NCBI GenBank assembly: GCA_012845835.1 | Contig: JABAKD010000028.1 | Span: 4,523,090-4,587,089 of the forward strand | Length of the DNA stretch: 64,000 nucleotides | Source of the DNA: Undaria pinnatifida | Lineage: Eukaryota; Sar; Phaeophyceae; Laminariales; Alariaceae | Direction: 5' to 3' | Shown here: in pieces, positions 1,547 to 52,429 of the stretch | How the letters are laid out: every line of letters starts with the position of its first letter | How positions within the stretch are numbered: position 1 is the stretch's first letter | Notes under the pieces: generated by a model | Told to the model about the DNA's origin: nothing | Seen by the model: the letters and a program-made list of their open reading frames with translations, nothing else | The model's database searches: none | Program-made: the position numbers and the translations under genes

Positions 1547-2011
1547 AAAACGGATTGAACTAAAAAAAATGCTTAGTCACCAAGTCTTACAATATCAGTC
1601 GGCGTCAGACTGCTTAATTAACTACTAATATTGACGTCGTAATTATATACCTGGTATCCTGAATCATGTTTTATATAAGAGTTTGACAGGCCCGAACGTG
1701 GGAGCGCTTGAGTGGGCAAAATTCGATACAAATCGACGAGAAGTGGGAACATTGAACCGTTTGAACGATAAAAATTAAGGGACAAACCGATTGCCGGGAT
1801 AGAAAAGGGATGGCACCTGTGACCTGTGAGCATGCAGGATGGCTCGTCCAGGTGTTCCACAAGGTAAAAGGGGAGGGTAAAAGCCCAAGAAAGTGGCCAT
1901 CATACGACCATACGATTTAAGATATCGAGGGTGCTAAAAATGATAACAATTTATCCAATAAATCAAAATAAACGAAAAACAACTGATAGAAATATCTGAA
2001 AGCAGCAGCAA

Positions 2012-2031
2012 CTACTAGACTAGTCTAGTAG
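2012..2031. other. Perfect 20-bp palindrome
   Basis: CTACTAGACTAGTCTAGTAG is its own reverse complement. A 14-18 bp core of it is kept in the gene B intron near 47070. It lies 17 bp from a TACCAGGTA palindrome at 2048. Confidence 0.8.
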
Positions 2032-2059
2032 CGTATAAAATAAAACGTACCAGGTAGCA

Positions 2060-2330
2060 TGTTTCCATTATTTTCTTTGTTTTTATTTTAATTTTTTTTT
2101 CATCTTTCTTTGCATGTTTTGTTGTGTTCTCGTACCCCGTGCGCTAACATTTCAATTGCTTCACATTTATTAATCGAGACTACTGTTCGGTTTACTCTGT
2201 TTCACGGTCTGGCACCACATAGTTTGTATCTCTGTACCCTAGATGAATCAGCACGGACTCTGGGTGTACTTTTTTATGTCGTTTCAGGTAGAAAGAACGG
2301 TTTTCTGTGTACTGTGAAGAAAACACACAC
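2060..2330 (-). repeat. Old relative of short retroelement X, partly overlapping the gene A donor region
   Basis: TTGTGTTCTCGTACCCCGTG, TTTCACGGTCTGGCACCACA and GAACGGTTTTCTGTG match 47145-47395 closely and the X family more distantly. It lies at the start of intron 1 of gene A and is shared with gene B, so it predates the gene duplication. Confidence 0.45.
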
Positions 2331-2378
2331 AATCAATGTCATTTGCACTACTAGCATGATACTTGTACCAACACTCAC

Positions 2379-3425
2379 CGCACCACCCCCGTTAGATGCC
2401 GAGTTGTGTGTCAGCTGCGTGCGCCCCCCCAACGTAATTGAAGACGCGGAAATTGCGCCACCATACTCATTCGAAGTGTTGTTTCCCAAAATGCACCCGT
2501 TGATCGTTATGTTGGTGAGAGGCCCTCCGTTCAACGCCCCGCCCGAACCCATCGCTTGGTTTCCGCTGAAGGTAGACTCAGTTATATCGACAATGGCAGA
2601 AAGGAAGACAGCGGCTCCGTCTCCCTCTTGGTATGCAAACTCACTTGTTGTAGAAACTTGGTATTTGCGGGTAGCACTGTTGGACGCGAACTCCGCCTCT
2701 GTGATGGAGCATACGGCCGCCAGCTTCGATGGTCCCGTTTCTTCGGCCCCACAGAACAGCGCGCCACCTGCGCCAGCTTTGTTGCCTTCGAAAATCGATC
2801 CTCCTGTTACCAGCAACTTGCCGTCAACGGCATGCACGGCACCGCCGTATCGAGTCGCTCTGTTGTCCAAGAACTCTCCGCCCACTATCGTGACATTCCC
2901 CCCGTCCGCCCACACCGCACCACCGCTGCCGTTCGTGGCGAGGTTACCGTCAAATACGCAGCTTTCCAGTGTTAACGTTGCAGAACGCGAGTATACCGCA
3001 CCGCCTCCGTCTGCAGAACCCCCCGAAAGCTTGAGCTGAGTCAAGGTCAGGCCACCACCTTGAGCAACTTCGAACAGACGGGTTCGGTTGGCCTGGGAGC
3101 TGGCTGCATACACCTCGGCCAGACTATTCTCTCCCGTCACGGAGAGGAAGGCGCCTTCTGCAATTACAATCGGAGCTCCAACCGAAACACGGCCAGCCCA
3201 GTCAGCCTGCACATCACTGCCGCCGGCGGTGCAAGCTAAAGCGGCTCGAAGTGCACTCACTCCAGTTGCGTTCACAACTCTAATGGGCTCAGTTTGCGCT
3301 ACGCCGCAAATTGGCTGCGCCGAAGACCGCGACGAGCCGGGGAGAAGCACATACGGCAGCAGTGCCATAGGCAGTAGCATCTGATAGACCGGGAGCGCTT
3401 TCCCGATGTGACCAAGAATGTTCAT
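2379..3425 (-). CDS. Gene A exon 1 (partial): paralogue of gene B, continues past left edge
   Basis: A single open exon encodes 349 aa, about 95% identical by eye to gene B exon 1. It has the same start (MNILGHIGKALPVYQ), the same signal peptide, the same series of GGA(V/L/I)/FxxN beta-helix repeats and the same GCG|GTGAGT donor at 2378. No frameshift or stop is visible, and substitutions are scattered. The rest of the gene would lie to the left, because intron 1 of gene B is 10 kb and the homologous intron here reaches the window edge at base 1. The gene could be functional or truncated; the window cannot tell. The upstream 3.1 kb is also duplicated with gene B, so both may share promoter sequence. 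Confidence 0.75.
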
Positions 3426-4491
3426 GTCCGGCGAGAAGCTTCGATTGATCGGGGAACCGGAAGAAGTATCAAGAGAGAACGATACACGGGGTATGAGGCT
3501 GCAGCGAGTAAAAACCGACTGGCTATTCAGAGGGTAAGTGCGCACGGTTTCTTGGTTTTTTTGTTTTGGTTTGGCATGTCGTTAGCGCGTGTGTTTTTTA
3601 CATTGAACGGATCTTTCCAACCATTTACAAGCAGCACAACCATTGACCACACAGATAACTCCAATCACAGAGGGACGAGCTTTGAAGTCGCAAATTGCAA
3701 GGCAGAGATACTCATTGCAATTAATTGCAGAAGTGCAGCTGAGAGACTGCTGTGGATGTTCTTCACAATTTATCTGTCTGGTATTTCTACCAGTCTAAAT
3801 CCAACACAACCAATGTCCGTGACGATGCCCTCTCATAAATCTCCTCGTAATGGAGAGTAGGGAGATAGGATCTCTGCGTAATCACAAACTGCGAGACAGA
3901 TAGACTACACACGCAGCAAGGCTGTTTGGCCATCCCACTTATACCGCAATGAACACGCGAGCCAAACGTATGCAAGAAGAAAACCAGCTTATATTAATGT
4001 TAATGGTGGACATCCCCCAATAAGGCGACATCTCTATATAAGGCGGTATTCCGATATAACGCGGTCAAAATCGCTCGGCGCGACTGGGGAATTGCTCTCA
4101 TTTTGTTTAATGTTTTACTTGTTTCCATGTTTTTTTCCCATCCCATTCATTACCCTCGCACTACTCTCGCCCTCGCTCCCACACATGATGGTAGTAGTAG
4201 CAGTAGCAACTCAGATCCGGGGTCACAAAAGCTGGCCCTCCTCCCCCCTCCTCACTACGGTACAGTACATGCCTTCATTTTTATCGCGAGAATCATTTAG
4301 AATTTCATTCCCTCGTCGACTCGCCTCGAATTGTGTGCCTAGTCATAGCTTGGAACAAATACGGCGGTTTCCTCAGAAACAAGGCGGTGATATTGGCCGT
4401 ATTGGTCATATCGGTAATAACATTGGTCATATTGCTCTCTATAGCACACCACAGCCTTACTGCGGGACCCCTACCATGGCGGCGGCGATGG
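3426..4491 (-). promoter_or_regulatory. Upstream region of gene A (putative promoter and 5' UTR)
   Basis: This region lies directly 5' of the gene A start and is duplicated upstream of gene B (48484-49815). No defined promoter motif can be proved. It includes a stretch related to the X family (about 3740-3900) and a C/T-rich stretch (4130-4300) shared with 49495-49700 and 57605-57800. In the gene B copy, 310 bp of it has been tandemly duplicated. Confidence 0.4.
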
Positions 4492-4768
4492 ACCCAGGCT
4501 ACGGTAGGAGGGTCCCTTCTTGGGCCTTTTACTTCAGTGGCTAGGGGTCACTCGCGCGAGTGACCCCTTTGTTCCTTTGCGATGTTAGTTTTTCTTCATG
4601 TTTTATACTTCGAAGTATTGACGAAATCAATCCGCAATACAATGGTAATCTAAGCTGCGCCAAAACAACTGCCTAAACCATTTTCATCCGTGAGGAACAA
4701 AGCCACTCGTGCGATTTGCTCAAACACACCAGTGAAAGTAGGGGTACCCCCCCTACCGTAGCCTTGGT
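4492..4768. mobile_element. 277-bp MITE with 6-bp target duplication and empty site in the paralogue
   Basis: Flanked by CGATGG (4486-4491 and 4769-4774). The termini are inverted: ACCCAGGCTACGGTAGG on the left, ACCAAGGCTACGGTAGG read from the right. The duplicate copy near 49815-49835 runs straight through the site without the element, so this is an insertion. Inside are a perfect 26-bp palindrome (4543-4568, AGGGGTCACTCGC and its complement) and ATACTTCGAAGTAT (4605-4618). There is no coding capacity. Confidence 0.8.
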
Positions 4769-5138
4769 CGATGGCGATATCGATGGTGTATGCTGTATTT
4801 ATATGCTGTATCCTGTAATCAGTATGCTGTATTTGAAAGGATTCAAAGGAAGAACAAAGAACGAGAATGACGAGAGAAACGAAAAAAGGAAAAAAGCAAA
4901 CCAACTGAAGGAAATAAATACGGAAATTAAGGAAACAAATAGAGAACGCAGGGGGGAGCAAAAAGTTGCCCAGTACACAGCAGTACCCAGGCAGCACGAT
5001 GAAAACGAGTCAAACAAGAAGGGGCACGACAAAAATAAAAACACAAGCAAACCAGACAACAGGCGAGCATTCATTTCTATTGATGGCAATGAATGGCAAA
5101 GACGGTGCTCCTTCCCCCTCGGGGGTGCAGTGTCAGCC

Positions 5139-5285
5139 GATGTCAGCCGACGTCAGCCGATGTCAGCCGACGTCAGCCGATGTCAGCCGACGTCAGCCGA
5201 TGTCAGCCGATGTCAGCCGACGTCAGCCGATGTCGGCTGATATCAGCCGATGTCAGCCGACGTCAGCCGATGTCAGCCAATATCA
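5139..5285 (+). repeat. 10-bp minisatellite (YGTCAGCCGA)n
   Basis: About 14 units of TGTCAGCCGA or CGTCAGCCGA, with one inverted-looking unit (TGTCGGCTGA). The duplicate at 50177-50200 has only two units, so the array expanded after, or shrank since, the duplication. Since 10 is not a multiple of 3, the array stays open in all three forward frames (SADVSRCQP repeats). Those frames are not evidence of a gene. Confidence 0.9.
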
Positions 5286-5329
5286 TGCGGCGGTACTACC
5301 ACCCCCAGTATGCAGGTTCTCGCTGAAGC

Positions 5330-5640
5330 GGTGTTCCCCTTTTCCCCTTCGCCCCTGATGTTCCCTTTCTTCGTCCCTTAAACGTTTCTATAGGTCTATT
5401 CATTTTTCCTTTTGTAAATTTCCCTTTCTGGTTTCTATTTTAGTGCCGCTGGGGGTTCTATAGGCGACAATATCAAGAAGGCCACACGACGTCGAAGATA
5501 CAGTAAGTAGGTGGGACAGAGCAGGCAGCAATGCTCCTAACTCTAGTAGTAGTTGCATTTGGATCCCAGTTTGGGTGCTGCCCCGACTCCGCCTGGGTGG
5601 TGTAATCGGTGGTGTCATCTGCAATATATCTGCGTTTGTT
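5330..5640 (+). repeat. Dispersed repeat family with conserved GAAPxPxGWC coding-like motif
   Basis: TGCCGCTGGGGGTTCTATAG, CAGCAATGCTCCTAAC and GGTGCTGCCCCGACTCCGCC recur at 50840-51030 (duplicate), 38420-38640, and inverted at 39840-40060. Translated, the copies share GAAPTPPGWC or close variants, hinting at an ancestral exon. Here the frame is broken by stops. Confidence 0.55.
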
Positions 5641-9320: not shown

Positions 9321-11630
9321 CAATGCCAGCGAACGTAGCGAGGCTATTCAACCATAACAAAGCAAGCCAAAAATGAGGTCAACAAGAAGATACTCGTTCA
9401 GCTCGAAGCAGCGCTGGAAGTGTCTAGCTCCAGAAAGAATGCAGGGAACAGAGAAGACAATGTGCCAAAAGCCGTAGCTAGGTACTATACGTCGAGAACA
9501 CGGAGTGGCCAACATGGAGCAACCCTAAAAAGGTAACCGAAAAAAATGCACGAAAAAGCAGGAAATAGGCAAATCGTATCATAGCAACGTGCTGCAGCCT
9601 GAAACAAAGAAGGAGGGCCCATAGCAAGGAACCTTGAAAGGCTACTTGAAGAAAACGAGCAACACTGGGTACGTAGCAAAGGAATCCCTCCGAAAGCGAT
9701 TCCGCCGAAAAAACAACACCAAAAGGGGGTCACCAGGAAACGACCTATATGGACTGCGAAGCCAAACTGGAATCAAAACGTGGGACCGATGCGATAGGTA
9801 CGCCTACAAGTCAAGAGGAAAACGGGGGCCAAGAGGGGACGGCCTGTGGACTGCACGGTCAGGACGGGCTGTAAAGCGATGATTAAGGCCGACGTAGTTG
9901 AACCCTGTGGGCAGGTATGCCGAAAAGAATCAAGAAAAAGTGGTCGAGAGAAACAAGACCTGTTGGCTGCAAAGCCAAGACGAGGATCAGTGTCGTTGGA
10001 CCGTAGGGGTAGGGGTGCCGAGAAAAAGTAAGTAGGAAAGAGTGGCCCAGGGGAATGGATCCGCTGACTACAAAGCTAGAACCGAGCCCGATGGCAAGGG
10101 GCTCTTGGGGGCAGGTACGACCAAACAAGAAGGTAGAGGCCAACGAAAACCGACAGATGGGCTGGAGAGTCAGCACAGAACCGCTAACGTGGAACCTAAG
10201 GGGGCCTATCAATGTGGAGCCAGTGGTCGACAATATGGGACCATAGACAATAGCAACAGCTGGAATGCCGTAATTATAAGTGGCTGGGGCTAACGTGCAG
10301 CGACGTCGGTCGTGGGAAGAAGTACACCAAGAAGCAAGAAAGGTCCAACAACAAAAGGGAAGTATGCCAAAGGGCAAGGAACGTCCAACAGCAACAACAA
10401 GAAAGGAGGTAATGCCTCGCGAAAAACGAAGATAAATAACGCGGGAAGCATCTATGTTGTCACCAATCGTACAAGACGAGGTGGAAACGAGACGATGGAA
10501 AACCTCGACGTGGGTCGGAAACGCCATGTTTCGTCGGTATGCACGAAACGTAGACAGGCTACATCGGCGGTAGAAGGCGGAAGGAAAACCACAAAGGTGA
10601 ACACTCGTCGTACTGTAGAATAGTAGAACAACTTGGGCACAAGTTCAAGGTCAAGGCGCCCATGAGGATCACTGAAAAAAGAACTAACGCCATACTTTGA
10701 ATGCGGCAAATGAGACAGAAGGCATACTACTACGGTAAAACGTTTTTGGAGCCTCGACGATAGTCAGACTTTAAGGGGGTACTTTTGGGGAGCCACGAGG
10801 CGATAACACTCTACCAGGTAGAGTTGTGCTGAGACAGTAGGGTCCAAAGCTAATACGCGCACTAAGCGTTGACCGACAAATTGTCCCAAAAGAAAGGAGA
10901 GAAGGCTACTACGGTCGGTCGCTAGCTGCGCACAGCGATAACCACTGAGGAGCAAGCGCGTCCAGAAATACCAAGGAAAAACAAATATTACCCGCGTTGC
11001 ATGGACGCGAAAGCAGAAGGTAAAGGTTCCGAAAATGCACGAAATCTAGAGCCGGGAGGAAATACGTTCCGAAAATGCACACGCTGCAGAGGGGACGGGG
11101 TGTACGTTCCCATCCGGCACATAGTGCAGGGAAAAAAAAACAAGATAGAAAAATCAAGCTAGCACGATATTATTTCCAACTCATACCATGAGAGCGGTAA
11201 AAACGGGGTCTTAACACAATGGAGGGCTCAGAATTTTTTCGAAAGAGCACGCACATGGTGCAGACGATATCTCGGCTGAGAAGGAATCATACGAGACTGT
11301 TACGATGTCGCGGGCTGATACCGTAAGCCGGACAGAGGGAGGGGGCAAATCACGTACAACTCTAGAAACGCTAGCGGGGCGCATGCACAGCGTGCAAGCG
11401 AAGTTCAGGCTAATGAGGATCAAGTGAAACTACCATGGTTTCGGGGGTTGATACTATAAAGGAGCCTAGAGGGGGGGGGTGGTGAACAAACGACGGACCT
11501 CAAAATACTAGTTAAACGTTGACGTCGTGAAACTCAAAAAATGTGGCCTACTATAAGCCATTCCTGTTGAAAGCTAAGACACCAAAAATCGAGGGAAACA
11601 TACGCGAAAGCACTTGGATGTCCAACCGAG
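9320..11630. other. Purine-rich non-coding stretch
   Basis: No convincing gene. The plus strand is rich in A and G with recurring words (GAAAACG, CCAAGAGG, CAAGAAAGG), so minus-strand frames look Leu/Ser/Phe-rich and open by composition. Best read as continuation of decayed tandem DNA. The duplicated word GTTCCGAAAATGCACGAAAT / GTTCCGAAAATGCACACGC lies at 11027 and 11067. Confidence 0.4.
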
Positions 11631-11639: not shown

Positions 11640-12050
11640 CTTGTGCAGGGCGATACGACGCAAACAAAGGGGACATCACGCCTCAATAAGCACCTACGGC
11701 GTGCGTAGTGCAAAAAACAGAGGAAGGGCCAGAGCACATACCAGGTATACCACAGTGGTTAGAGAAAAAAAATACGAGGCCTCAAGAAGCACCTATGACG
11801 TACGTAGTGCAAAGAGTTGAGGAAGGGGTAAGCGTGTATGTCACAGCAGTAAGGATCCAAATACGACGCCTCAAAAGGTACCAATGACGTACGTAGTGCA
11901 AAAAGCAGAAGAAGAAGCCAAGATGGGCATACCACAGCAGGTTTGGAGACATATACGATGCCCAAATATGCACCTATTTCGTACTTAGTGCAGAAAGCAA
12001 GAGAAAGGCCAACAAAACAAATACCACAGCGCTTTTGGGGGCTGCGAAAC
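11640..12050. repeat. Tandem repeat, four units of about 90-100 bp
   Basis: The core word ACGTACGTAGTGCAAA occurs at about 11700, 11799, 11888 and 11980, each preceded by CCTCAA...GCACCTAT and followed by a CATACCACAGCAG-like stretch. Unit 1 carries an additional TACCAGGTA (11739-11747) absent from the others. Confidence 0.8.
11739..11747. other. TACCWGGTA palindrome (one of eleven exact sites)
   Basis: Exact sites: 1648-1656, 2048-2056, 11739-11747, 21846-21854, 22268-22276, 23455-23463, 29733-29741, 30213-30221, 41021-41029, 49475-49483, 51662-51670. The central base is A or T. Four extend to ATACCWGGTAT. This site interrupts a tandem repeat unit whose siblings read GGCATACCACAG without it. 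Nature unknown: excision footprint, tiny insertion or protein-binding site. Confidence 0.7.
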
Positions 12051-21714: not shown

Positions 21715-22240
21715 ACATGAAGTATACTCCCGATATTTTCAAGGTCCACATTTCAATAATCGAAAGTCGTTGTTGTTTTGTACATAATCAGCAGTGTACG
21801 GCCACACACATGGCGCCACCACTCATGAACCTCTTTTTCGTTTAATACCAGGTATGTTTTAGGGTATGGGTAGTGTATTATAGGTTATTTTCCGGGAATC
21901 TCAAAATTGTGTTAAAGTTTCTGACTACCAAGGTGGCGTCTTCTCCTTGCGTGGATTTCAGCATAATGCGGTGTACGAGCTCACAAGGCAGACGGCGAAC
22001 ATTATCGGGTGTATGTGTGAGCAATCAAGGTCGTGCGCGTGTAGCGGAACTGTCACTACCTCTTAGTCCCTTTGCCCCAGATTTTTTCCCGCCAGCCCAA
22101 GCCCTTTCCCCGGTATCCATACATACCTAACCCAATGCTGGAGCCTGTCCTGTGACCACGGACTTGATTATTCGAGTTAATGAAAGAACAACAGACTGCT
22201 ACAACAACAACAACAACAACAAAAACAACAAAACTGCTGC
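21715..22240 (+). repeat. Dispersed repeat U with (CAA)n tail, copy 1
   Basis: Starts at TATACTCCCGATATTTTCAA, runs through GTGTACGAGCTCACAAGGCA and GTCGTGCGCGTGTAGC, and ends GACCACGGACTTGATTATTC, then (CAACAA)n. The second copy is 52654-53710, and isolated 3' ends are at 57410-57475 and 58085-58155. Multiple 3'-end copies with a simple-sequence tail suggest a non-LTR retroelement (inference). Confidence 0.65.
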
Positions 22241-22539
22241 TCTTGAAGCTCCGAATTGAAAACAGCGTACCAGGTATATATCGTCGACTATTATTACAGA
22301 TTATTTAGTGCTGTATCATCGATTGCTCGCGCACACGACATGTTGTCAAAAAGATACCTATTACTACTATTTCGAAGTATATATAATAGATTGCTGCTGT
22401 GCCATCGATCAGTACGTCACGCGTTGACTCGTTCTCGGCAAAAAACCTGTCCAGGAATCCAAACTTCAAAATCGTCGCCCATTCTCAGATATGTATTTCT
22501 TGCCTCCCGTACGTATGTAGTACGCGTTCACGACCAGGT

Positions 22540-23450: not shown

Positions 23451-23520
23451 CATATACCAGGTATATATTTATTATAGTAGTATTTTCAATCTTGTTTATC
23501 TATTCAATTTTTCGTTTTGT

Positions 23521-29700: not shown

Positions 29701-31902
29701 AAGGCCATCGAGAGGCTGACAAATTATATACATACCAGGTACATATCGTGTTGCGGATACATAGTGTACCAATACAGGAGTAGCATCATCTCACAAGAAC
29801 TTTTACTTTGTCACAGTACCCTTTTGTCCAACCGCTTCATCCGTGCACTTATACTTTCTCCCTGTTTTAGCCATAGGCAGTGAGAAAACGGTGTAGTTGC
29901 TGCTGTCGGTGTTGTTGTTGCCTCTGCTCTGCAGAATATTGAACAAGTTCTGCTGCTGGCGAGTGAACTCGTATTTCTTGATTCAGCCTCCCTATGATCA
30001 CTTCAATGGGAAGCCTTGTATATTGTACCCACAGGTATAGACACGCATATCAATTGCGGTTCAACGCCTTTCTTCTGGGGCTTAGGTCTATACCTGGTTC
30101 GTATAACGTTTCCCTCCTATCTCTACATGTCTACAGGCTGGTTCGCGTTAGAAGCTCGAAATTTTTCTCCCCTACGAATGCCGCTCGCAATATCTAGCCC
30201 AAGGTTACTTGGTACCTGGTATCATACTGACCTCCAAGACCAGTGGAAGAGGGTAACATGACCAGTTTTTATTTAACTGCCTCGGGCTGTTTGTCGGAAC
30301 AAAAATCGTATCGACCAATTACCGGCATTCAAAAATTTTCAATGATATTCAGGCGTTTTCCAAGCGGGAGGTAAAAAACTAATTGCGCCGCAGTTTGCAC
30401 GAACCGATTGGAGGCACTTCAAGGCATGTTAGTGGAAGGTTTCGCGCGAAAAGTAGAAGATCTGACCTGCCTACATTCATCAATGCACAGAATTTAGCGA
30501 AACGCTGAATGCTAGACTAAAACCATGTCAATTGAAGGAATTAAGGCATCTTACTCATTTTGGCGCACGAAAGTCCAAATGACCACGCTGTTTTTGAGAG
30601 ATAGACGCTGATTTTTTCACACGTATTCTACATGCCCATCCCGAGGCCTGACCTTCGGTTTTTCTTTTTTCTTTTCTTTCTTTTCGCTGATTTGTTTCGG
30701 TCTAAGGTAATCCACATTTCCCAAACGATCTTAACTGACGAGAACTCAGCCCTCTCTGTCCTTGACAAGTGACGCCTTGCAAGGGCACAAAAAAGACGTG
30801 CGCAAAACTCCACGGTTTGAATCGAAAAAACGGCGTGAACATTCGCCGGGGAATAGATTTCGGGCTTTCAACTTCAACCAGCCTGTATTGCCAACAACGT
30901 TGTTAGTCCCTGAGATCCTGGGAATATAGTCACGCCGCCGTTGAGGCGGAGGCGACGGCCCTAGTCCCTAGCATGCATATCAATATATCATGTATATATG
31001 TTGTACACGATTTCCCGTCGGGATCGTTTGATAATGATAACAAAGGCGCGGCGCAAAAAATTACTAGAGCCACGAAAGAACCTGACAAATTGCCAGTGTA
31101 TCCACGTGTTTTGTATTCGTTTTGTTTTAAACTTTTTGAATTATAGCGCTGGGGACCTGTGTTGTTCTAGAAGTTGTATGGCGTCTGCAGGGTATTATTT
31201 TGACTTCTTTTTCACGCGAACAATAAACGCAAACGCATAAAACAAACGTCCGGAGTGGCCAATCAACTAACTGCCGCATCCAACTGTTTTGAGGTACGGA
31301 ATGGATTCGCAACACTCACCGAAATCCTTCCACAGGAATATGGACGGGACTAGTTGCGGATGTTCGCGCCTTGCCTCCACCTTTTCTTCCAACTCTCGCA
31401 ATTCCTCAGAGGACAAGTTGGCCTTGGTTTGAGATTTTGATGCGGTACATACTTTCGTCGAGGGGTTCCCGTCGTTTCTCGACGAGTTTACCGCCCTGAC
31501 TGGCCCGATGATTTCGGTGGGCTCGATGTAGATGCGTGGATTGAGCAATTCCCGTTTCTTCCACAAAATGGCGGCGTAAAGGACGGGGATGCCGATCGGG
31601 TATATCTGGGGACGGGCAAAACACGTTTGTCGAGGGAAATCAGGCACCTTTCCTTAAACCGGCCTCACTCGCATGACGAATGTATTGCATGGAAACAATA
31701 TCATTGTTACACACCCACGGCTACTCTGTCGTCTTGCTGGCCCGCTCACCACGATCATGAGCATGGCGTAGACTCGGAAGAACGTGTGCAACCTCGAGTT
31801 GCATGACAGACTGTAGTCAACTCTGAGATAGCTCTCCCCCTCCACAACGTTGTCGTTGCACGCGAAAGTTTTGAACACCGAGGTAGACACCGACGTAAAC
31901 AC
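26784..31902 (-). CDS. Gene B exons 7-10: conserved polytopic C-terminus
   Basis: Exons 31902-31750, 31605-31320, 27653-27463 and 27122-26784 encode residues 1274-1595. Conserved-looking blocks include YLRVDYSLSCNS, the junction IV|IYPIGIPVLYA, YYYEVIECGRR, ACIFAFLSLLGFELMRPH, and the junction WLYRL|GCVIIFFNNFLALLIKVD. These form about five hydrophobic helices. Exon 8 adds a charged, coiled-coil-like loop (SSEELRELEEKVEARREH). The tail after residue 1520 is hydrophilic. Intron 8 (31319-27654, 3.7 kb) contains a direct pair of roughly 300-bp repeats. The arrangement recalls the multi-span domain found at the end of many stramenopile POMP proteins. Ion-channel function is speculative. Confidence 0.8.
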
Positions 31903-40813: not shown

Positions 40814-40844
<31 letters not shown>

Positions 40845-43800
40845 TGACACAACGACATAACAACACAACAACGCAAGAGCACAATAACACAACAAAAAAC
40901 GGGTCGAGTTTATGCAAGGTGCTGTCGCCGACACCCATCGATTATCAATGGAAATGTTAAATGTGCACTACTTTTAATATCAACATCCACTACGATCATA
41001 TAGTCTACGTATACGTGTTGTACCAGGTACAACAAATGTATGGATTCTGCGCTGACGCTCATCGATAAACAACAAATCGATAAACGACAAAATTATCTTC
41101 TATCATTACTTACAAAATACTAACTGTTAGTAGTAACGCAAGGTTTCAGCGCTGACGCGCATCGATGGATGACAATGAACCTAAGGCCGAACTACTCCTG
41201 CTGGGGTATGCATCAGACGGAGCACGAGAACACATGCATGACAACACAAGCACCGCCGAAGCCGTACGACGAAACTAGCTGAAAGTAGTTCGGAGTTGAC
41301 AAATGCCGTAGGTCTAGCATGTTCTTCGTTCTTACGCTTCTTGTACTGCCGACAACGGTTACAACGCGATGACTATTAACTAAAACATTGAAAAAGCATT
41401 CCGTCCAGCTGTGAGATCGAAGATTTTGTCGAAACTCATCTTTGCAAGCTGTGTGTAATATTCGCCGATCGCGTGTATTACTTTTGCTACTGGGTTTGTG
41501 TCCTCGTTACGGACATTAAGCCGGCGACTGCCTTTTTGAACTATTGTGTTGTAGACTGTATAATACGAGGGTCAACAGGGCACCACGGGGTGATATATGA
41601 ATATGGGAACATGTGAATCAATCTATGGGGGAGGGTTGGGGTGTAAAGGGCGGATAAGTCGCATAAACGAACAGGACCTTACTGCACACGTGTTGATAGT
41701 TGGCGTTGTTGGGGGGGGTTGGGGGTGAAATTGGAATTTGAAGGCTATACTCGTATAAAATATCAGGGTGGTGTTCGGTAACGATCTTTTAGGCGGTCTC
41801 AGACGGGGCGGCACTGCCACTTTCCGGTAGTTTTGCTGACGGTCGTCGGTATTTCGTTATTTGACGGTTACTACCTTGACGGAAACGGCAAAACCAAAAT
41901 GTACCGGTAATTATGTCGGTGGTAATAGGACACGACGGTAATGTTTCGACGGTAGACGGTATTTCGATATCTGACGGTAACTGCCTTGACAGAAACGGCA
42001 AAACTAAAATATGCCGGTAATACTCCGGCGGTAATGCAACACGGCGGTAATTTCTTGACGGCAGACGGTATTTCGTTTAATGGCGGTAACGCCGTTGTTG
42101 GTAAAAGGTAACACAAAAATGCCGGTATTTGGCAATTGTTGTTGGATATGTGCGTGCCTCACTGGCGGGCAAGCTACTTCTCTTTCCATCACATCGGGAT
42201 TGAGCAGTCTCATGCGAACAACAACCACCGGAAAAAAAAAAAAGTCCCTAGACAAAAGGGGCAATAAGCTACTTCTCTTTTCATCACATCCGGATCAAGC
42301 AGTCTCATGCCAACAACAGCCACCGGAAAAAAAAAAAAAAAAAGGCGCCTACTCAACAAGCGGGCAAGCTACTTTTCTTTCCTCGGGGTCTGGCGAAACA
42401 GCAGGCGGGACTAACGAAGCAGCAGGCCCAGCCTCTTCACTTGTAGTGGCAACAGGCCCATACTGTCCGCACCGCTCATACTTCTGCTGACCACGCTGGG
42501 CGTGATGTGGTGTGCGTGCGGTGGCAGGTGAGCGACGCTCCCTGTCCACACGTCCACACACGCATACAAGGTTCTCCCGAAAGGGAACCAGTGGAACCTT
42601 CTGACCAGAAAAATATAAAATTTAAAAGAACATCCGCCACATGTCGCGCGGCATCTAGTAAAACAAACTACTGACGGTGCGTTTTGGGCGGTACCCATTG
42701 TTGGCGGTACTCTTCTGGCGGTATACAATGTTGGCGGTACTCTCTTGGCGGTATCTACAGTTGCCGGTATTTATTTGCCGGTAAACGGTTGAACTTTAAT
42801 CTGACGGTAATTCCGTCTGACGGTGATAAATGTAACGGTAGTTTCCTGACGCTGGACGGAATTTTATTTTTCGGCGGTAACGCCCTTGGCGGTAGACGGT
42901 AACACGAGAATATGCCGGTAAACGGCGGAATACCCGGACCGTCAGACGGGGCGGTAAAACCAACGACGGGCAGATTACCGAACACCACCCTGTTGGAATA
43001 TAAACGAATTGGAGCTACTGAATGTGTGGCTCGATAGGTAAAGATATGGTATCACCTGTCGGGTAGTGTTTATGCTCTGGCGGATTTTGTTTTTGGGTGG
43101 GGCCGGGGGGGAGAGCGGGGCGTGGTGGAGGAGATGTCAGGAGGAGGGGGGTGGACGGCAGTAAAATATTCTACCTGGATGCTAAATGCAGATGCCCAAT
43201 ACAGTATTTCAAAGATAATGCATGAGGTGGAAGGGAGAAAAATGTACGTGGTGTTTTTAGTTCGTGGTATTACATTGATAATAATATTAGTGGCTTTCGA
43301 TATCGGAATAAGATGAATACTACCAACGGTACTTGCGGTGTACTGGGGATTTTTGTGTTGGTTTTTCTGTATGTACCCTGGTTTGATATATTTGCAGATC
43401 ATCTAGATGAATAATCGATGGTGTCACCTGACCTGTACTAGGCAACCAACTCTCGGCCATTTCGGTACAACTGCTGTATGTATGATCGAACATCCATGTC
43501 TGGCTATCAGCTTGCCTATGCGTCTTCGTTCCCGTTGCCCCCTCCGTAAGGCATGCTGCAAAGCATGCCCTAGAAGGCGTGTATTGGGAGGGGTCTTTCT
43601 GGCGGATGTAAGGACTCACCCTCAAGGAGGAATACCTTCTTGCTGCCGCGTGTGGCCGCGAGGCTTAGGCGTTGCGGTAGGGTTGGGTCGTACGTGGTGC
43701 GTTAGGCATGGTCACCTGCGATTCGCGCGTCGTTTTAGGCAGCAGCGGCGGAGCAGCAATGCATAATCGGAATGCTCGTGCGCGGAGGCAGGCGCCACCA

Positions 43801-46800: not shown

Positions 46801-48483
46801 CGCGGCCAAACGCGGCAGCAAGAAGGTATCATTCCTTGACGGTGAGTCCGGCCTTGCACACACCAGAAAGACCCCCCCCCCACTCGCTACAAGCCTGCTA
46901 GGGCATGCTTCGCATCATGGCTTACCGAGGCGGCAAGGGGAACGGAGGTATGATACGACCATACGACTTGAGAAAGAGAAAGTGCTGAAAATGATGATCA
47001 TTTATCCAATCCAATAAATCAGAATAAACAAGAAACAACTGAATGAAATATCTGAAAGCAGCCGCAACTATTACTAGACTAGTCTAGTAGATTATCCGCG
47101 ATATGAAACGTACCCAGGTAGCATATTTCCATTATTTTCTTTTTATTTGTTTTAGACTATAATTTTTTTATCTTTTTTGGCATGTTTTGTTGAGTTCTCG
47201 TACCCCGTGCGCTAACATTTCAATTGCTTTACTTTTATTAATCGCGATTACTACTGTTCGGTTTACCCTATTTTCACGGTCTGGCACCACATAGTTTGTA
47301 TCTCTGTAATCTAGATGAATCAGCACGGACTCTGGGTGTACTTATTGATGTCGTTGCGGGTAGAAAGAACGGTTTTTTTACAAGACAGCACACACAATGT
47401 CATGTGCACCAGCATGACACTTGTACCAACACTCACCGCACCACCCCCGTTAGATGCCGAGTTGTGTGTCAGCTGCGTGCGCCCCCCTAACGTACTTGAA
47501 GACGCGGAAATCGCGCCACCATACTCATTCGAAGTGTTGTTTCCCAAAATGCACCCGTTGATCGTTATGTTGGTGAGAGGCCCTCCGTTCAACGCCCCGC
47601 CCGAACCCATCGCTTGGTTTCCGCTGAAGGTAGACTCAGTTATATCGACAATGGCAGAAAGGAAGACAGCGGCTCCGCCTCCCTTTTGGTATGCAAACTC
47701 ACTTGATGTAGAAACTTGGTATTTGCGGGTAGCACTGTTGGACGCGAACTCCGCCTCTGCGATGGAGCATACGGCCGCCAGCTTCGATGGTCCCGTTTCT
47801 TCGGCCCCACAGAACAGCGCGCCACCTGCGCCAGCTTTGTTGCCCTCGAAATGCGATCCTCCTGTTACCAGCAACTTGCCGTCAACGGCATGCACGGCGC
47901 CGCCGTATCGAGTTGCTCTGTTGTCCATGAACTCTCCGCCCACTATCGTGACATTCCCGCCGTCAGCCCACACCGCGCCGCCGCTGCCGTTCGTGGCGAG
48001 GTTACTGTCAAACACGCAGTTATCCAGCGTTAACGTTGCAGAACGCGAGTATACCGCACCGCCTCCATCTGCGGAACCCCCCGAAAGCTTGAGTTGAGTC
48101 AAGGTCAGGCCACCACCTTGAGCAACTTCGAACAGACGGGTTCGGTTGGCCTGGGAGCTGGCTGCATGCACCTCGGCCAGACTATCCTCTCCCGTCACGG
48201 AGAGGAAGACGCCTTCTGAAATTACAATCGGAGCTCCAACCGAAACACGGCCAGCCCAGTCAGCCTGCACATCACTGCCGCCGGCGGTGCAAGCTAAAGC
48301 GGCTCGAAGTGCACTCACTCCAGTTGCGTTAACAACTCTTATTGGCTCAGTTTGCGCTACCCCGCAAATTGGCTGCGCTGAAAACCGCGACGAGCCTGGG
48401 AGAAGCACATACGGCAGCAGTGCTATAGGCAGTAGCATCTGATAGACCGGGAGCGCTTTCCTGATGTGACCAAGAATGTTCAT
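26784..48483 (-). CDS. Gene B: POMP-type beta-helix surface protein with polytopic membrane C-terminus, 10 exons
   Basis: Joined exons (minus strand, 5' to 3'): 48483-47437, 37385-37223, 36448-36294, 35744-35590, 35315-34012, 33676-32682, 31902-31750, 31605-31320, 27653-27463, 27122-26784. Every junction is GT-AG and every phase matches, giving 4788 nt and 1595 aa ending in TAG. Domains: signal peptide (about 1-36); right-handed beta-helix with repeated GGA(V/I/L) and FxxN motifs of the chlamydial PMP type (about 60-600); EGF-like Cys cluster (about 710-732); Cys-rich segment with GYWRPN (about 853-965); roughly eight hydrophobic spans from residue 970 on; a Ser/Ala-rich, probably cytosolic tail. 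The family is known to me as large algal and stramenopile proteins usually labelled polymorphic outer membrane protein. A cell-surface receptor, adhesin or channel-like role is inference. The start at MNILG is chosen because it begins the signal peptide and conservation with gene A drops just upstream. Intron 1 is 10,051 bp and packed with mobile DNA. Exon assignment was done by eye. Confidence 0.85.
28320..28640 (+). repeat. Intron 8 repeat T, copy 1
   Basis: TTTCGCGCGAACAATC, AATCTAGCGAAAAGACTGGA and CATGCCCATCCCGAGGTCTA align in order with copy 2 at 30380-30690. It lies inside intron 8 of gene B. Confidence 0.6.
30380..30690 (+). repeat. Intron 8 repeat T, copy 2
   Basis: TTTCGCGCGAAAAGTAGAAG, AATTTAGCGAAACGCTGAAT and CATGCCCATCCCGAGGCCTG. 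Roughly 70% similar to copy 1 by eye, same orientation, about 2 kb apart. Confidence 0.6.
32682..33676 (-). CDS. Gene B exon 6: first membrane spans and cytosolic loop
   Basis: This 995-bp exon encodes residues 942-1273. It finishes the Cys stalk (CAVCMEGYGRGVGNTCHYC). A strong hydrophobic helix follows (about 970-995, VILLLLLTAVVYLIGGL), then a low-complexity loop of about 165 residues rich in Gly, Ser and Cys. Two more spans come next (about 1163-1181 and 1218-1240). The exon ends in RHMAAGLLLTFL, which runs on into exon 7. The loop CDCVLDNSSSRCRGEGGENC has many Cys residues. Donor TTG|GTGAGG. Confidence 0.8.
34012..35315 (-). CDS. Gene B exon 5: end of beta-helix, EGF-like and Cys-rich extracellular part
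   Basis: This 1304-bp exon encodes residues 507-941. It begins KYGGFSFLEEGASIMC and carries the last helix turns (GGGYYARN, FENN). An EGF-like cluster follows (CSDPNACGPGLCVDAIIGVLCEC at 710-732), then a roughly 120-residue Ser/Thr-rich beta-type stretch with several NxS/T sites, then a Cys-rich stalk (CQAGEY, CEACDTVGDGMVLDC, GYWRPN, YCEVGYRGP). It ends in a split codon completed by exon 6 to give GYRGPYCAVCMEGY, a typical receptor-stalk motif. All features point to an extracellular location. Confidence 0.85.
35590..37385 (-). CDS. Gene B exons 2-4: short beta-helix exons
   Basis: Three exons of 163, 155 and 155 bp (37385-37223, 36448-36294, 35744-35590) encode residues 350-506. Read together they continue the POMP pattern: GGCFYG, FNNG, GNGGSIF, ISGKFSGG, GGFFYA, NSGGALYC, GGTFRNN, GGFFESN. 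Splitting a codon across exon 2/3 and exon 4/5 restores these motifs exactly, which is the main reason to trust the junctions. Intron 2 (37222-36449) contains a copy of a dispersed repeat also found at 50385-50610. The similar exon sizes and the boundaries inside GGA motifs suggest the helix grew by exon duplication (inference). Confidence 0.8.
36695..36900 (+). repeat. Dispersed repeat Z, copy 1 (intron 2 of gene B)
   Basis: ACACTTCCACGTATTATCAC, CAGCGCTAGGTGGCG, GCGAGCTGTCCCTACCGGCG and ATACGGATGCATGAGTACGT. Copy 2 is at 50385-50610, upstream of gene B. Confidence 0.65.
37690..37790 (+). repeat. Dispersed repeat W, diverged copy (intron 1 of gene B)
   Basis: CAGCTGTGAATTCGATTGAA ... GTCGATACTCATATTTGCAA ... 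GCTGCGTGATACACCGGCCG follows the W module with many substitutions, so it is an old copy. Confidence 0.5.
38165..38290 (+). repeat. 12-bp minisatellite (ATAGTGTTATTA)n
   Basis: About ten imperfect units (ATAGTGTTATTAATAGCG and variants). The open hydrophobic frame it creates (LLIVLLIANLIVL) is a product of the repeat. Confidence 0.8.
38420..38640 (+). repeat. GAAPxPxGWC repeat family, copy in intron 1 of gene B
   Basis: GATGACGTCGGTATGGACAT, GGCAGCGATGCTCATAACCC and GGTACTGCCCCGACGCCCTC match the family at 5330-5640 and 50840-51030. Its translation reads GTAPTPSGRC. Confidence 0.5.
38640..38775 (+). repeat. Degenerate (CTACTRTACA)n microsatellite
   Basis: ACACTACTGCTGTACGCTAC, CTGCACTACTGTACACTACT and similar, about ten imperfect units. 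Confidence 0.65.
38850..39790 (+). repeat. Degenerate tandem triplet, period about 360 bp
   Basis: GCGAGTCGACGAGGGAAG (38862), GCGAATCGACGAGGGAAG (39234) and GCGAGTCGACGGGGGAAG (39588) each begin a unit that continues with (T/A)ATAGCCTG(C/T)(T/C)TAG(T/A)GACC. Second halves share GATAATxxxxxxGxAT and CGGCGGTCT. Units have diverged substantially. Confidence 0.65.
39840..40283 (-). repeat. GAAPxPxGWC repeat family, inverted copy with longest open frame
   Basis: The minus strand encodes an open frame (40283-40017, 88 aa): short N-terminus, PATPPSGGAVPPNDTDG, a run of NGT/NAT glycosylation-like sites, then a strongly hydrophobic helix (LVHLVPYFFLLFFFAFLSVF). A second frame further on reads VVAFGEPILGAAPMPAGWC followed by another hydrophobic segment. 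This is the least broken of four copies. It may be a decayed gene or transposon exon. No known family recognised. Confidence 0.35.
40364..40843 (+). repeat. (CCA)n / (ACC)n trinucleotide tract, about 480 bp
   Basis: Almost pure ACC triplets with scattered ACG, AAC and CCC variants, flanked on the right by (CAA)n. All frames on both strands are open (polyT/P/H forward; polyW/G/V reverse). Treat as simple-sequence DNA in intron 1 of gene B, not as protein-coding. Confidence 0.95.
40919..41180 (+). repeat. Short motif GCGCTGACGCxCATCGATxxACAA, three copies
   Basis: GCTGTCGCCGACACCCATCG (40921), GCGCTGACGCTCATCGATAA (41049) and GCGCTGACGCGCATCGATGG (41149). Spacing about 100-130 bp. Confidence 0.5.
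41395..41600 (+). repeat. Dispersed repeat W plus neighbouring part of V
   Basis: CAGCTGTGAGATCGAAGATT, then TCATCTTTGCAAGCTGTGTG and TTGTGTCCTCGTTACGGACA, GCCGGCGACTGCC, GGGTCAACAGGGC. The order is the same as at 20533-20690, with more divergence. Confidence 0.65.
41764..42992. mobile_element. 1.23-kb non-autonomous DNA transposon with 18-bp perfect terminal inverted repeats
   Basis: Left end CAGGGTGGTGTTCGGTAA (41764-41781); right end TTACCGAACACCACCCTG (42975-42992), the exact inverse. Both subterminal regions are crowded with GGCGGTA, GACGGTA and CCGGTA words, as transposase-binding subterminal repeats often are. The centre (42165-42440) has a 100-bp unit in about three copies. CAGGG ends are seen in hAT elements, but no clear 8-bp target duplication was found, so superfamily is left open. 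No transposase frame. Lies in intron 1 of gene B. Confidence 0.75.
42165..42440 (+). repeat. Tandem repeat, about 100-bp unit, inside the 41764-42992 element
   Basis: GCAAGCTACTTCTCTTTCCA, ATAAGCTACTTCTCTTTTCA and GCAAGCTACTTTTCTTTCCT begin three units. The first two continue with AGCAGTCTCATGC, CAACAACxxCCACCGG and poly-A. Confidence 0.75.
43523..45065 (+). repeat. Repeat K, direct arm (interrupted by element X)
   Basis: Matches, in reverse, 45728-46945. Its right half (44406-45100) also matches 1-330. It contains a 104-codon frame (43708-44022: MVTCDSRVVLGSSGG ... WIRRRRRKATGRRRA ... LSLNEKFGFSDQHRKLL) whose inverted counterpart is frameshifted. No family recognised; the Arg-rich stretch is notable. 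Element X sits in it at 44613-44933. Confidence 0.6.
44613..44933 (+). mobile_element. Short retroelement X, copy 1 (SINE-like), with target duplication
   Basis: Flanked by ACCTGTG on both sides (44606-44612, 44934-44940). Body begins TGTGTGTTCTTCACATTAAA and includes CGTCGACATCCAGCACACCC, and the 3' end is A-rich (AAACAAAAACAAAAACAAAA). The inverted arm of repeat K and the copy at base 200 lack it. No reading frame, so it is mobilised in trans if mobile. No clear tRNA head. Confidence 0.75.
45675..46947 (-). repeat. Repeat K, inverted arm inserted into intron 1 of gene B
   Basis: The homologous place in gene A intron 1 (1890-1900) reads through without it, so this 1.27-kb piece was inserted after the duplication, in inverse orientation to the nearby arm at 43523-45065. 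A minus-strand frame (46753-46396) resembles the 43708-44022 frame but is split by a frameshift. Confidence 0.65.
47145..47395 (-). repeat. Old relative of element X near gene B exon 1 donor
   Basis: Counterpart of 2060-2330: TTGAGTTCTCGTACCCCGTG and TTTCACGGTCTGGCACCACA. Part of the ancestral intron. Confidence 0.45.
47437..48483 (-). CDS. Gene B exon 1: signal peptide and first beta-helix block
   Basis: This 1047-bp exon encodes residues 1-349. It starts with MNILGHIRKALPVYQ, followed by a hydrophobic stretch ending near RFSAQPICG, a plausible signal peptide. Then come six or more POMP repeats (GGAVYS, GGAVWA, GGAVHA, GGALFC, GGALNG, GGAISA, GGAVSV) alternating with FxxN strands such as FDSN and FSGN. 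The donor is GCG|GTGAGT, read on the minus strand at 47436. Because 1047 is divisible by three, the exon ends in phase 0, which fits the acceptor at 37386. An upstream in-frame Met at 48720 exists, but that stretch is poorly conserved with gene A and is probably 5' UTR. Confidence 0.85.
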
Positions 48484-48546
48484 ATCCGGCGAGACGCACC
48501 GATTAATCCGGGAACTCGAAGGAGTATCAACAGAGTATGTTACACA

Positions 48547-49166
48547 GGGCATGAGGCTGCAACGAGTAAAACCCGACTGGCCATTCAGAGGGTAAGTGCG
48601 TACGGTTTCTTGTTTTTTTGGTTTGGTCGGCATGCCGTTAGCGCGTGTGTTTTTCACATTGAACGGATCTTTCCAACCATTTACAAGCAGCACAACCATT
48701 AGCCATGCAGATAGCCCCAATCATGGAGGGACGAGCTCTGAAGTCGCAAATTGCAAGGCAGAGATACTCATTGCCAATTGCAGAAGTGCAGCTGAGAGAC
48801 TATTTGTGGATGTTCTGCACATTTATCTGTCTGGTATTTCTACCAGTCTAAATCCAGGGCATGAGGCTGCAACGAGTAAAACCCGACTGGCCATTCAGAG
48901 GGTAAGTGCGTACGGTTTCTTGTTTTTTTGGTTTGGTCGGCATGCCGTTAGCGCGTGTGTTTTTCACATTGAACGGATCTTTCCAACCATTTACAAGCAG
49001 CACAACCATTAGCCATGCAGATAGCCCCAATCATGTAGGGACGAGCTCTGAAGTCGCAAATTGCAAGGCAGAGATACTCATTGCCAATTGCAGAAGTGCA
49101 GCTGAGAGACTATTTGTGGATGTTCTGCACATTTATCTGTCTGGTATTTCTACCAGTCTAAATCCA
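48547..49166. repeat. Recent 310-bp tandem duplication upstream of gene B
   Basis: Unit 48547-48856 is repeated at 48857-49166 with one visible mismatch (CATGGAGGG against CATGTAGGG). Gene A has a single copy. It covers the region just 5' of the gene B start, so it may double promoter or 5' UTR sequence. Confidence 0.9.
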
Positions 49167-50384
49167 ACACAACCAATGTCCGTGACGATGCCCCCTCTTA
49201 GCCCTCCTCTTAGAAGAGAGTAGAGAGGTAGGATCTCTGCGTAATCGCAAACTGCGAGACAGATACACACGCAGCAAGGCTGTTTGGCCATCCAACTCAA
49301 ACCGCGATGAACACGCGGGCCAAACGTATGCGATAAGGAAACCAGCTTGTATTAATGTTAATTGTAGACATCCCCCAATAAGGCGGTATCCCTATATAAG
49401 GCAGTATCCCGATATAGCGCGGTCAAAATCGCTCGGCGCGACTGGGAAATTGCACTCATTTTTTTTTTTTTTTCTACCTGGTATTTTTTTTTTTTCCCCA
49501 TCCCATTCATTACCCTCGTACTGCTCTCGCGCTCCCTCCCACACATGGTAGTAAAGTAGTAGCAGTAGCAACTCAGATCCGGGGTCACAAAAGCTTGCCC
49601 TCCTCCCCCCTCCCCACTACGGTACAGTACATGCCTTCATTTTTATCGCGAGAATAATTTAGCATTTCATTCCCTCGTCGACTCACGTCGAATTGTGTCT
49701 AGGCATAGCTTGGAATAAACACGGCCGTTTCCTCCAAAAGGTGGTGATACTGGCCATATTGGTCATATTGCTCTATGTAGTACACCACCGCCTTATTGGG
49801 AGACCCCTACTATGGCGGTGGCGATGGCGATAGCGATGGTGTATGCTGTAAATGCTGTATCCTGTAATCAGCATTTGCTGTATTTGAAAGGAAATAAAGG
49901 AACAACAAAAAACAAGAATGACGGAAAGAATGAAAAAAAAACAAAAAAAACGAACAAACAAACAAACAACTGGAAGGAAATACGGAAGTAAAGGAAACAG
50001 AGAACGCAGGGGCGAGGAAACAAGTGGTAGTGCCCAGGAAGCACGAAAAAAACGAGTCAAACAAGAGGCGGCACAACATATATGAAAACACAAGCAAACC
50101 AGACAGCAGGCAATCATTCATTACTACTGATGGCAATGAATGGCAAAGACGATGCTCCTTCCCCCTCGGAGGTGCAGTGTCAGCCGATGTCAGCCGATAT
50201 TATGTAGCTGTACTACCACCCCCGATACGCGGGTCTCACTGAAGAGGTGTTTCCCTTTTCCCCTTTGACCCTGCTATTCCCTTTCTTCGTCCCTTTAACG
50301 TTTCTATATTCCTTTTTCCTTATTTATATTGTCCTTTATTATTTTTATTTTTTTTATACTCTGGCGGATGGGAAAAAAAAAAAA

Positions 50385-50760
50385 AAAAATAAGCTCACCA
50401 CACTTCCACGTGTTTACATACGCGTCGTATGTCGATTTAACTCAGTTGTTCTCACAACCCAGCGCTAGCTGGCGCGTCCTTTGGCTCCCACCTATGGTGA
50501 CAGCGTGAGCTGTCCCTATCAGCGGTCCTCGTTACAAACCCGGCAGCGCAAGCTATAGTTGTATACGGATGCGTGGGCATGTCGACCCGGCCTGTCCCCT
50601 GAGGGTCAGGTTCGGTGGAGATAGCCACCCGGAACGGCATCTTTCCGGGTAGTGTGGGACGTGCGCAAGCTCACCCACTAACAAATCCCCGGCCATGGGA
50701 GATGGCTTTCCGCCGGACCTGGTCCAGTTGCGGTCCACCCTACCCATTTCTTCGTCCCTG
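50385..50760 (+). repeat. Dispersed repeat Z, copy 2, within a post-duplication insertion
   Basis: ACACTTCCACGTGTTTACAT, CAGCGCTAGCTGGCGCG, GTGAGCTGTCCCTATCAGCG and ATACGGATGCGTGGGCATGT match 36695-36900. The insert is bracketed by two copies of CTTCGTCCCTTTAACGTTTC (50291 and 50780), so about 490 bp was added at a site that is single in gene A. Confidence 0.65.
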
Positions 50761-50839
50761 TTGTTCCGTCTCTTCGTCCCTTTAACGTTTCTTTATTCCT
50801 TTTTCCTTTCAAAAATTGCCCTTTCTGTTTTCCACTTTA

Positions 50840-51030
50840 GTGCCGCTGGGGGTTCTAGAGGCGATAATATCGATATGGACCCACGGCGTCGAAGACACAG
50901 TGAGCAGGTGGGACAGGACAGGCAGCAATGCTCCTAACGCCTAGTAGTAGTTGCATTTGGATCCCAGTTTCGGTGCTGCCCCGACTCCGCCTGGGTGGTG
51001 TAATCGGTGGTGTCATCTGCTATATTGCTG
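50840..51030 (+). repeat. GAAPxPxGWC repeat family, duplicate copy
   Basis: TGCCGCTGGGGGTTCTAGAG and GGTGCTGCCCCGACTCCGCC. Partner of 5450-5620. One frame reads FGAAPTPPGWC. Confidence 0.55.
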
Positions 51031-51228
51031 CGTTCGTTCTTGTTTACTAATAGTTATTGTTACTAGACACACCGTTTTTGTATTTGGTATAATACAGGGC
51101 GACGATGACGGCGGTATTGGCACCACGTGTCGTCAGAACCAGTGCGCAGGTGATACACCATGTGATACCATGCAGGAACGCTCTACTACTGGGTATCCTT
51201 CATTATTGTGTTTTTCACCATGAATGGA

Positions 51229-51622
51229 TGTGTGTGTGTGTTCTTCACATTAAACCGTTCTTCTACTCGTCGACATCCAGCACACCCAGCGTCCGTACTG
51301 ATTCTTCACCCTAGAAAGATCAGCTCTGTGGTCACAAGCTACGACACAGAGATAATGCATCGTAATGCATTCGACAACGCAATGTCATGCCCTAGTACTG
51401 GGTACGACAGGCACAACATACATACGTCAGCAACAGAAATACATTGGAAGAGAGAATACGAAGTAAACAAAAACAAAAACAAAAACAAAATAATAATAAG
51501 AAAACAAATAAAAACAAAGATAAAAATAAAACAAAAATGAAACAAACAAAATGAAGGGGAAATCGAAGAAACAACCCAACCGGAAAGGAGAGCCAAAGCT
51601 CGGAAAAGAAACATAATAAAAT
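51229..51622 (+). mobile_element. Short retroelement X, copy 2, with target duplication
   Basis: Flanked by AATGGA (51223-51228 and 51623-51628); the gene A side (5795-5810) has the uninterrupted site. Same 5' start as copy 1 but about 80 bp longer at the 3' end (GGGGAAATCGAAGAAACAAC, GAGAGCCAAAGCTCGG). A-rich throughout the second half. Confidence 0.8.
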
Positions 51623-52429
51623 AATGGAACTAACCCTAGCCCTAACCCTAGCCCTAAACCATACCTGGTACACAATATACCGATGACTACTCCATAATGA
51701 CGTCATTGCGGTAAAATGGTTGAAATTCCACACAGATGTGTATCTCTGCTCCTACTCCTACAACAACACTTCGTAGCAGCAGTGTGGTGGTCGTATAGGG
51801 TAATTCGAAATCCAACATGGTTGCTGCCCATGATATTGGTTGGATGTGGCCCAATCTGCTTGGGTGCGAGTTGCTGCTTGCAGCTGTCGGTTGTGCTTTG
51901 CCGTTTGGTTTCATTTTTGTTTGTGTGCCGTCCTGTTTCATTGCAATACTTTTCTCCAATAAATTGCAAGTATTCCTGTTTTTCCCTTTATAAATAATAG
52001 GGCAGACGACAGAAAGCGGTATACCGCCACCGTTCCGCGCCACCGTGCGGTACAGCAGAATACACCCAGGTTTGTTACCCCGATCCGCGACGCTGATTGT
52101 TCAACTCAGCCTCCTACCGGTTTAGGACACCCGACTCCTTGCGGTGCATCGTACCGCGGCTTCTCAGCTCGGCCGTCACCGTTTCCTGACGCGACCCAAA
52201 ACGCTTTCTGTCGCACAATACACCATGCAGACCGACTTTGCCCCAGGCTCTTCACGGACATGACCCTTCAATTTCCGACCGAATTTCAACCATGAACACA
52301 ACGTCGTGTAGCATCCATAGAACGACGCGCTTTCACATTCCTTCATATTTCGGATTCCTTCAGAGATATGGATATACATATAGATATTCTATAGAATAGT
52401 CTATAGTCTATATATATATATATATTTTT

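Follow-up and report, generated by a model that had tools for sequence, protein, structure and literature searches.

In a 64,000-nt stretch of the brown alga Undaria pinnatifida genome (contig JABAKD010000028.1, positions 4,523,090 to 4,587,089 of the forward strand; hereafter the window), the nine-base palindrome TACCWGGTA is present in strong excess, and the same is true of the genome as a whole. We propose that this word is the scar of an excised TA-targeting cut-and-paste DNA transposon, and we put the probability of this reading at roughly 0.78. The word is gained as 7 nt with a duplication of TA, shows a target preference, lies in independent contexts, decays with a bias towards transitions and nests within itself.

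We found 12 exact TACCWGGTA sites in the window, while 100 dinucleotide shuffles of the same DNA averaged 0.42 sites and never had more than 3. The word was also the top odd nine-base palindrome of the window, the runner-up having 5 copies. With up to one mismatch, 27 matches were found (the 12 exact ones included), compared with 10.9 expected. Genome-wide (511,146,479 bp in 68 contigs), we counted TACCWGGTA 85,263 times and the reversed control word 3,475 times, a difference of about 25-fold. The strong excess claimed in the original prediction, which had counted 11 sites and suggested the comparison with shuffles and other palindromes, is therefore borne out. Two 100-kb pieces picked blind to the word contained 15 and 21 sites. 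Together with the window they make up a 264-kb sample, in which we counted 48 sites against 1.5 expected from a third-order Markov model. In this sample it is the full nine-base word that is enriched: counting both strands, TA comes after TACCWGG 96 times, and no other dinucleotide does so more than 13 times. TACCWGGTA ranks among the most over-represented nine-base words of the sampled DNA.

The two forms of the word, TACCAGGTA and TACCTGGTA, are reverse complements, that is, one word in two orientations. Each was counted 24 times in the 264 kb, and this equality follows from the reverse complementarity. The A or T at the centre only reports the orientation and is thus uninformative on mismatch repair, so the original argument that an ambiguous central base is a trace of such repair is void. 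On the plus strand of the 264 kb, the corresponding word with a central C was found twice and that with a central G not at all.

For the flanks and targets we used a set of 82 sites, namely the 48 sites of the 264 kb and 34 in loci excised around listed genomic places. Flank similarity was flagged in five pairs among them; three of these come from neighbouring sites that appear twice, and the other two are matches of 19-21 nt. This agrees with the earlier claim that the sites lie in unrelated contexts; they do not belong to a single repeat family. We regard it as practically negligible that the excess is an artefact of composition or of a single repeat family. Such artefacts do occur in this DNA, since TAAGSCTTA and TACASTGTA, two candidates from the k-mer list which we rejected as further footprints, also looked enriched, yet most of their copies lie within repeat families. 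For TACCWGGTA, the roughly 25-fold excess over the reversed control, the Markov expectation and the unrelated flanks of the 82 sites all argue against it.

The cleanest comparison of a filled with an empty site was found in a tandem array at C1:1002715. Three units of this array share identical 82 flanking bases; two of them read GTGCGTACGTT and the third, which reads GTGCGTACCTGGTACGTT, is longer by precisely 7 nt, namely CCTGG and one TA. An insertion at TA with duplication of the TA, as is characteristic of Tc1/mariner elements, is thus seen at C1:1002715, and two weaker pairs agree with it: C1:51014 compared with C1:1057076-1057131 (82% over 56 nt), and window site 51662 compared with the paralogous DNA from 5802 on (82% identity over 78 nt once the 7 nt are taken out). 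Our screen for empty paralogues flagged 7 of the 82 sites and none of 16 sites of three control words. Four of the seven were not counted, as they represent a self-match of a T run (49475), one simple repeat and two overlapping sites. The presence or absence of the word between sibling repeats had been claimed for three sites of the window. It is borne out in part, as 51662 fits a 7-nt gain, while site 49475 and site 11739, whose sibling tandem units are only about 71-74% alike, are ambiguous in alignment; the clean case lies outside the window. Aligning the flanks to empty paralogues, as had been suggested, gave a 7-nt gain in each usable case.

The TA targets are not a random choice. The pattern R-TA-Y was found on both sides at 53 of the 82 sites, compared with 33.6% of 13,433 TAs (p about 1e-8), and the outer bases, reading outwards from the TA pair, were T or C in 131 of 164 cases. 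The placement along the DNA is near Poisson, with a mean of 1.78 and a variance of 1.73 sites per 10 kb over 27 bins, of which the one that closes the window spans 4 kb. The sites are depleted in long open frames: frames of 150 codons or more, which hold 21.5% of TAs, contain 2 of the 48. For frames of at least 120 codons we counted 12 of 48 (37.1% of TAs), for at least 200 codons 1 of 48 (11.3%) and for at least 250 codons none of 48 (7.6%).

Next to intact words, the sample contains an excess of one-step mutants. In the 264 kb, the nine transition neighbours total 52 against 14.6 expected and the 17 transversion neighbours 42 against 27.5, and no protected position is apparent. Genome-wide, 255,019 matches with up to one mismatch were found, compared with 76,145 for the control. 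Above the control this leaves about 97,000 one-step mutants and about 82,000 intact words, which would correspond to a divergence of about 12% if all words had one age. Scars that were imprecise from the start could account for part of the one-step mutants. The pattern looks like neutral ageing and is unlike that of a maintained site.

The word is also found nested. TACCWGGTACCWGGTA, in which two words have one TA in common, occurs 3,654 times genome-wide compared with 2 for the control. Among the first 50 of the 3,654 places, which are partly non-independent (two, near C1:3097607 and C1:3132504, lie in a duplicated segment, and C1:9383769 and C1:9383776 overlap), the two centres agree in 34 pairs and are opposite in 16 (p = 0.015 against equality). 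Some double words may be 7-nt duplications; those with opposite centres are not. Word positions recur with near-equal spacing in C1:3089251-3107912 and C1:3124151-3142778, about 34.9 kb apart, which looks like a recent segmental duplication.

The word could arise in the following way. An element would insert at TA, preferably at R-TA-Y, and duplicate the TA. On excision, staggered cuts would leave each flank with a 3' tail made of a few terminal bases of the element. Given 5-nt tails and an element that starts with CCAGG (or CCTGG), both tails would be identical and would anneal to each other through C:G, C:G, G:C and G:C pairs around an A.A mismatch in the centre. Repair would then produce TA-CCWGG-TA, 7 nt longer than the empty site. 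That a transposon is responsible is our inference, and so are the sequence of its ends, the length of the overhang and the way in which the break was repaired. The original idea of an excision footprint has gained support from the clean filled and empty pair, the target preference, the nesting and the transition-biased decay; what it has lost is the argument from the central base, and no donor was seen in the 338 kb that we read.

The footprint of Sleeping Beauty has the form TACWGTA. The scar described here resembles those of Sleeping Beauty and mariner in that the TA target is duplicated, a few terminal element bases stand between two TAs and the whole takes the form TA-core-TA (PMC7827188). 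Unlike in those systems, the scars here far outnumber any donor in the sample. Stowaway miniature inverted-repeat transposable elements and plant Mariner elements are also comparable, as their excision is described as usually leaving a small duplication and short end sequences (PMC4561436); in contrast, rice Mariner elements are reported to have CTCCCTC as their terminal consensus and not CCWGG (PMC4423477). The related brown alga Ectocarpus has many Tc1/mariner families (17, with 11,912 copies, many of them non-autonomous; PMC12477816), and in the main text of that transposon paper the words 'footprint' and 'excision' occur zero times. Harbinger elements are reported to duplicate a 3-bp TNA or ANT target (PMC12477816), and we ruled against PIF/Harbinger since the duplication at C1:1002715 comprises TA alone, with outer bases that are mainly purine / pyrimidine. 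For piggyBac, a TTAA target and seamless excision are reported (PMC7351741), and it was ruled against on the TA target and the 7-nt scar. Among the open-access literature matches listed, none describes such scars in brown algae and no title concerns the exact word.

We also looked for the element and its transposase. Of 104 TACCWGG ends, 4 were found at alignment boundaries, and we rejected these, as they do not read as ends of an inverted-repeat element. In a screen for inverted repeats next to TA, none of the 80 matches listed of 113 starts with CCWGG. The DDE_3 family has 8 matches in the genome at E <= 0.001. One of them, in locus L051:1422-3734 (C29:8198422-8200734), is an open frame for a 771-aa transposase without stops. 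Its relatives were found, among others, in Pylaiella littoralis (86% over 85% of the length), Ectocarpus (71%) and Scytosiphon (64%), and in Undaria (89% over 16% of the length), which points to a brown alga; no relative was confirmed in viral contigs. No convincing inverted repeat lies next to a TA at this locus. PF01359 had no matches in the genome, in a search that was also without a match in any control genome.

Several results weigh against an excised transposon as the source of the word. In the 338 kb we saw no two TACCWGG ends paired by matching inverted repeats; as the DNA beyond the three large pieces is largely in pieces of 3-7 kb, long elements are less well excluded. The suggested search for full elements starting with TACCAGG or TACCTGG thus came out empty in these 338 kb. 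By a rule-of-three estimate, donors of up to a few kb would number fewer than about 4,500 copies genome-wide. Since neutral scars accumulate at the rate of their formation, a small and long-active donor population would suffice. No CCWGG end was found in the 5.8 kb around the L051 transposase, the one DDE_3 copy that was read, and this transposase is therefore not linked to the word. A usable empty paralogue is available for only 3 of the 82 sites, and only that at C1:1002715 is clean. Two-step mutants show no excess in the 264 kb (569 against 562 expected), slightly below what a single age of 12% would suggest, which is a mild tension. If TAs were targeted at random, subject to the R-TA-Y preference seen here, a coarse estimate would put the double words at 460, and the actual count is about 8 times higher. 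The model alone does not predict this excess; re-entry into scars, hot spots and duplication are candidates. Cross-nesting with other TA words was not found in the 338 kb (0 for 7 patterns), where little was expected. Finally, the 5-nt core is longer than the three-nucleotide 3' overhangs left by Sleeping Beauty and mariner (PMC7827188) and the 0-4 bp footprints of Passer (PMC9976928). Because of this length we regard the process as similar in operation to Tc1/mariner excision without classing it as proven to belong there; the element itself may have been Tc1/mariner-like.

The same footprint might have been produced with a shorter stagger, a variant that we find rather unlikely. Tails of 3 nt (CCA) with their last bases opposed would be gap-filled by a polymerase to CC(A/T)GG without any 5-nt overhang. 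This yields the identical word and would match the three-nucleotide 3' overhangs of Sleeping Beauty and mariner (PMC7827188), yet TACCATGGTA, the product of plainly joining both 3-nt tails, occurs only once in the 264 kb, and TA-CCA-TA footprints are not prominent in the list of TA-N3-TA words. The original prediction had named a spreading protein-binding site and a very small mobile sequence as alternatives, and the same filled/empty, target, nesting and decay data disfavour both. A binding site, spread and kept by selection, would explain why the word is palindromic, like many dimeric sites, and why long open frames contain so few copies (2 of 48 sites, compared with 21.5% of TAs). It is nevertheless highly improbable, as the placement is near Poisson, the word is inserted as a 7-nt unit with TA duplication under an R-TA-Y target rule, and a word kept against mutation should not show a transition-biased one-step excess without any protected position.

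That the 5 or 7 nt themselves move would account for many independent copies with target duplication. Known DNA transposons need transposase-binding ends, which are too long for five bases. Five bases cannot house such ends, and a footprint does without this assumption, which makes a minimal mobile sequence very improbable. We consider it just as hard to believe that the words are scars of programmed excision, comparable to the TA-flanked eliminated sequences of ciliates, with the assembled DNA being somatic and the eliminated segments missing from it. Very many scars with no donors in the sample would then be expected, but scars remade in each generation should lack transition-biased ageing, and neither the 3,654 double scars nor a tandem array with a scar in only one of its three identical units is a good fit. 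To our knowledge, no such process is known in brown algae.

Two other TA-flanked words behave similarly to TACCWGGTA. The 12 bases of TACTTCGAAGTA form a perfect palindrome, an 8-nt core between two TAs, and this word occurs 4,167 times genome-wide compared with 16 for its control; the 264 kb contain five scattered copies. It would be the expected product of a 5-nt tail CTTCG annealing through the self-complementary CG. TAGWCTA, which would be expected from a 3-nt tail GAC, was found at 108 sites in the 264 kb against 14.2 expected (about 8-fold). These sites form 63 clusters, one of which is a 29-copy minisatellite, and 4 of the 14 clusters in the window are double words sharing or adjoining a TA. 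Unlike for TACCWGGTA, the R-TA-Y preference is absent in the raw counts, in which the minisatellite is included. At C1:4575501-4575533, TACTTCGAAGTA lies 5 nt away from a double TACCWGGTA. Together with the shared paralogous TA of 21846 and 53324, this place suggests that TACCWGGTA and TACTTCGAAGTA scars may share hot spots. A stretch starting with TAGTCCGTTTGACC, a candidate of the boundary screen, was rejected as a donor of TAGWCTA; most of its copies are flanked alike by TTAGTGGGGTAT, which makes it an inner part of a larger repeat.

Table 1. Positions of TACCWGGTA and of other TA-flanked words in the window
Sequence	Position	Strand	Remarks
TACCTGGTA	1648..1656	.	Exact match; putative excision footprint
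TACCAGGTA	2048..2056	.	Exact match; paralogue 47111-47120 reads TACCCAGGTA
TAGACTA	3901..3907	.	Paralogue 49225-49305 has TA alone; clean 5-nt gain, 94% over 81 nt
TACTTCGAAGTA	4606..4617	.	Footprint-like; one weak (68%) alignment to a copy without TACTTCGAAGTA
TACCAGGTA	10812..10820	.	Exact match; within longer palindrome 10808-10824
TACCAGGTA	11739..11747	.	Exact match; in one unit of a diverged tandem array
TACCAGGTA	21846..21854	.	Exact match; paralogue has TACTTCGAAGTA at the same position (53324)
TACCAGGTA	22268..22276	.	Exact match
TACCAGGTA	23455..23463	.	Exact match; within ATATACCAGGTATAT
TACCAGGTA	29733..29741	.	Exact match
TACCTGGTA	30213..30221	.	Exact match
TACCAGGTA	41021..41029	.	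Exact match; within longer palindrome 41016-41034
TACCCAGGTA	47111..47120	.	Paralogous state of site 2048
TACCTGGTA	49475..49483	.	Exact match; in a T run, alignment to 3489-4491 ambiguous
TACCTGGTA	51662..51670	.	Exact match; 7-nt gain compared with paralogue from 5802 on
TACTTCGAAGTA	53324..53335	.	Same paralogous TA as TACCAGGTA at 21846
TAGWCTA (14 clusters)	2016, 3901, 19183, 27773, 27954, 29184, 30513, 38121, 41001, 47075, 47153, 52397, 52635, 58719		

Since the paralogue of site 2048 carries TACCCAGGTA, this site is older than that duplication. The window contains duplicated gene copies with PMP-like repeats at 1899-3803 and 46950-48856 (91% over 1.9 kb), and a PF02415 match was found in the frame 47320-48720 of these copies. 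For a beta-helix protein encoded in the window, 76 relatives were found, all of them unnamed. A 310-bp tandem duplication, 99% identical, lies at 48545-49166, and a short interstitial telomere-like stretch of CTAACCCTAGCC at 51630-51657.

A wider version of the proposal, which we hold only tentatively and would not quite put at even odds, is that a transposase lineage cutting with a 5-nt stagger, longer than in the compared Tc1/mariner relatives, excised well over 100,000 times in this algal lineage and is now rare or extinct. Its history would survive almost only as scars, and the double scars would suggest that it preferred to re-enter its own scars. If the reading of the words as scars is right, excision scars would be a countable and datable record of cut-and-paste transposition that is independent of surviving copies. 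For elements which are no longer visible, one could then measure how often they moved, which targets they chose and how the sites were repaired, and a 5-nt stagger would widen the known range for TA-targeting transposases.

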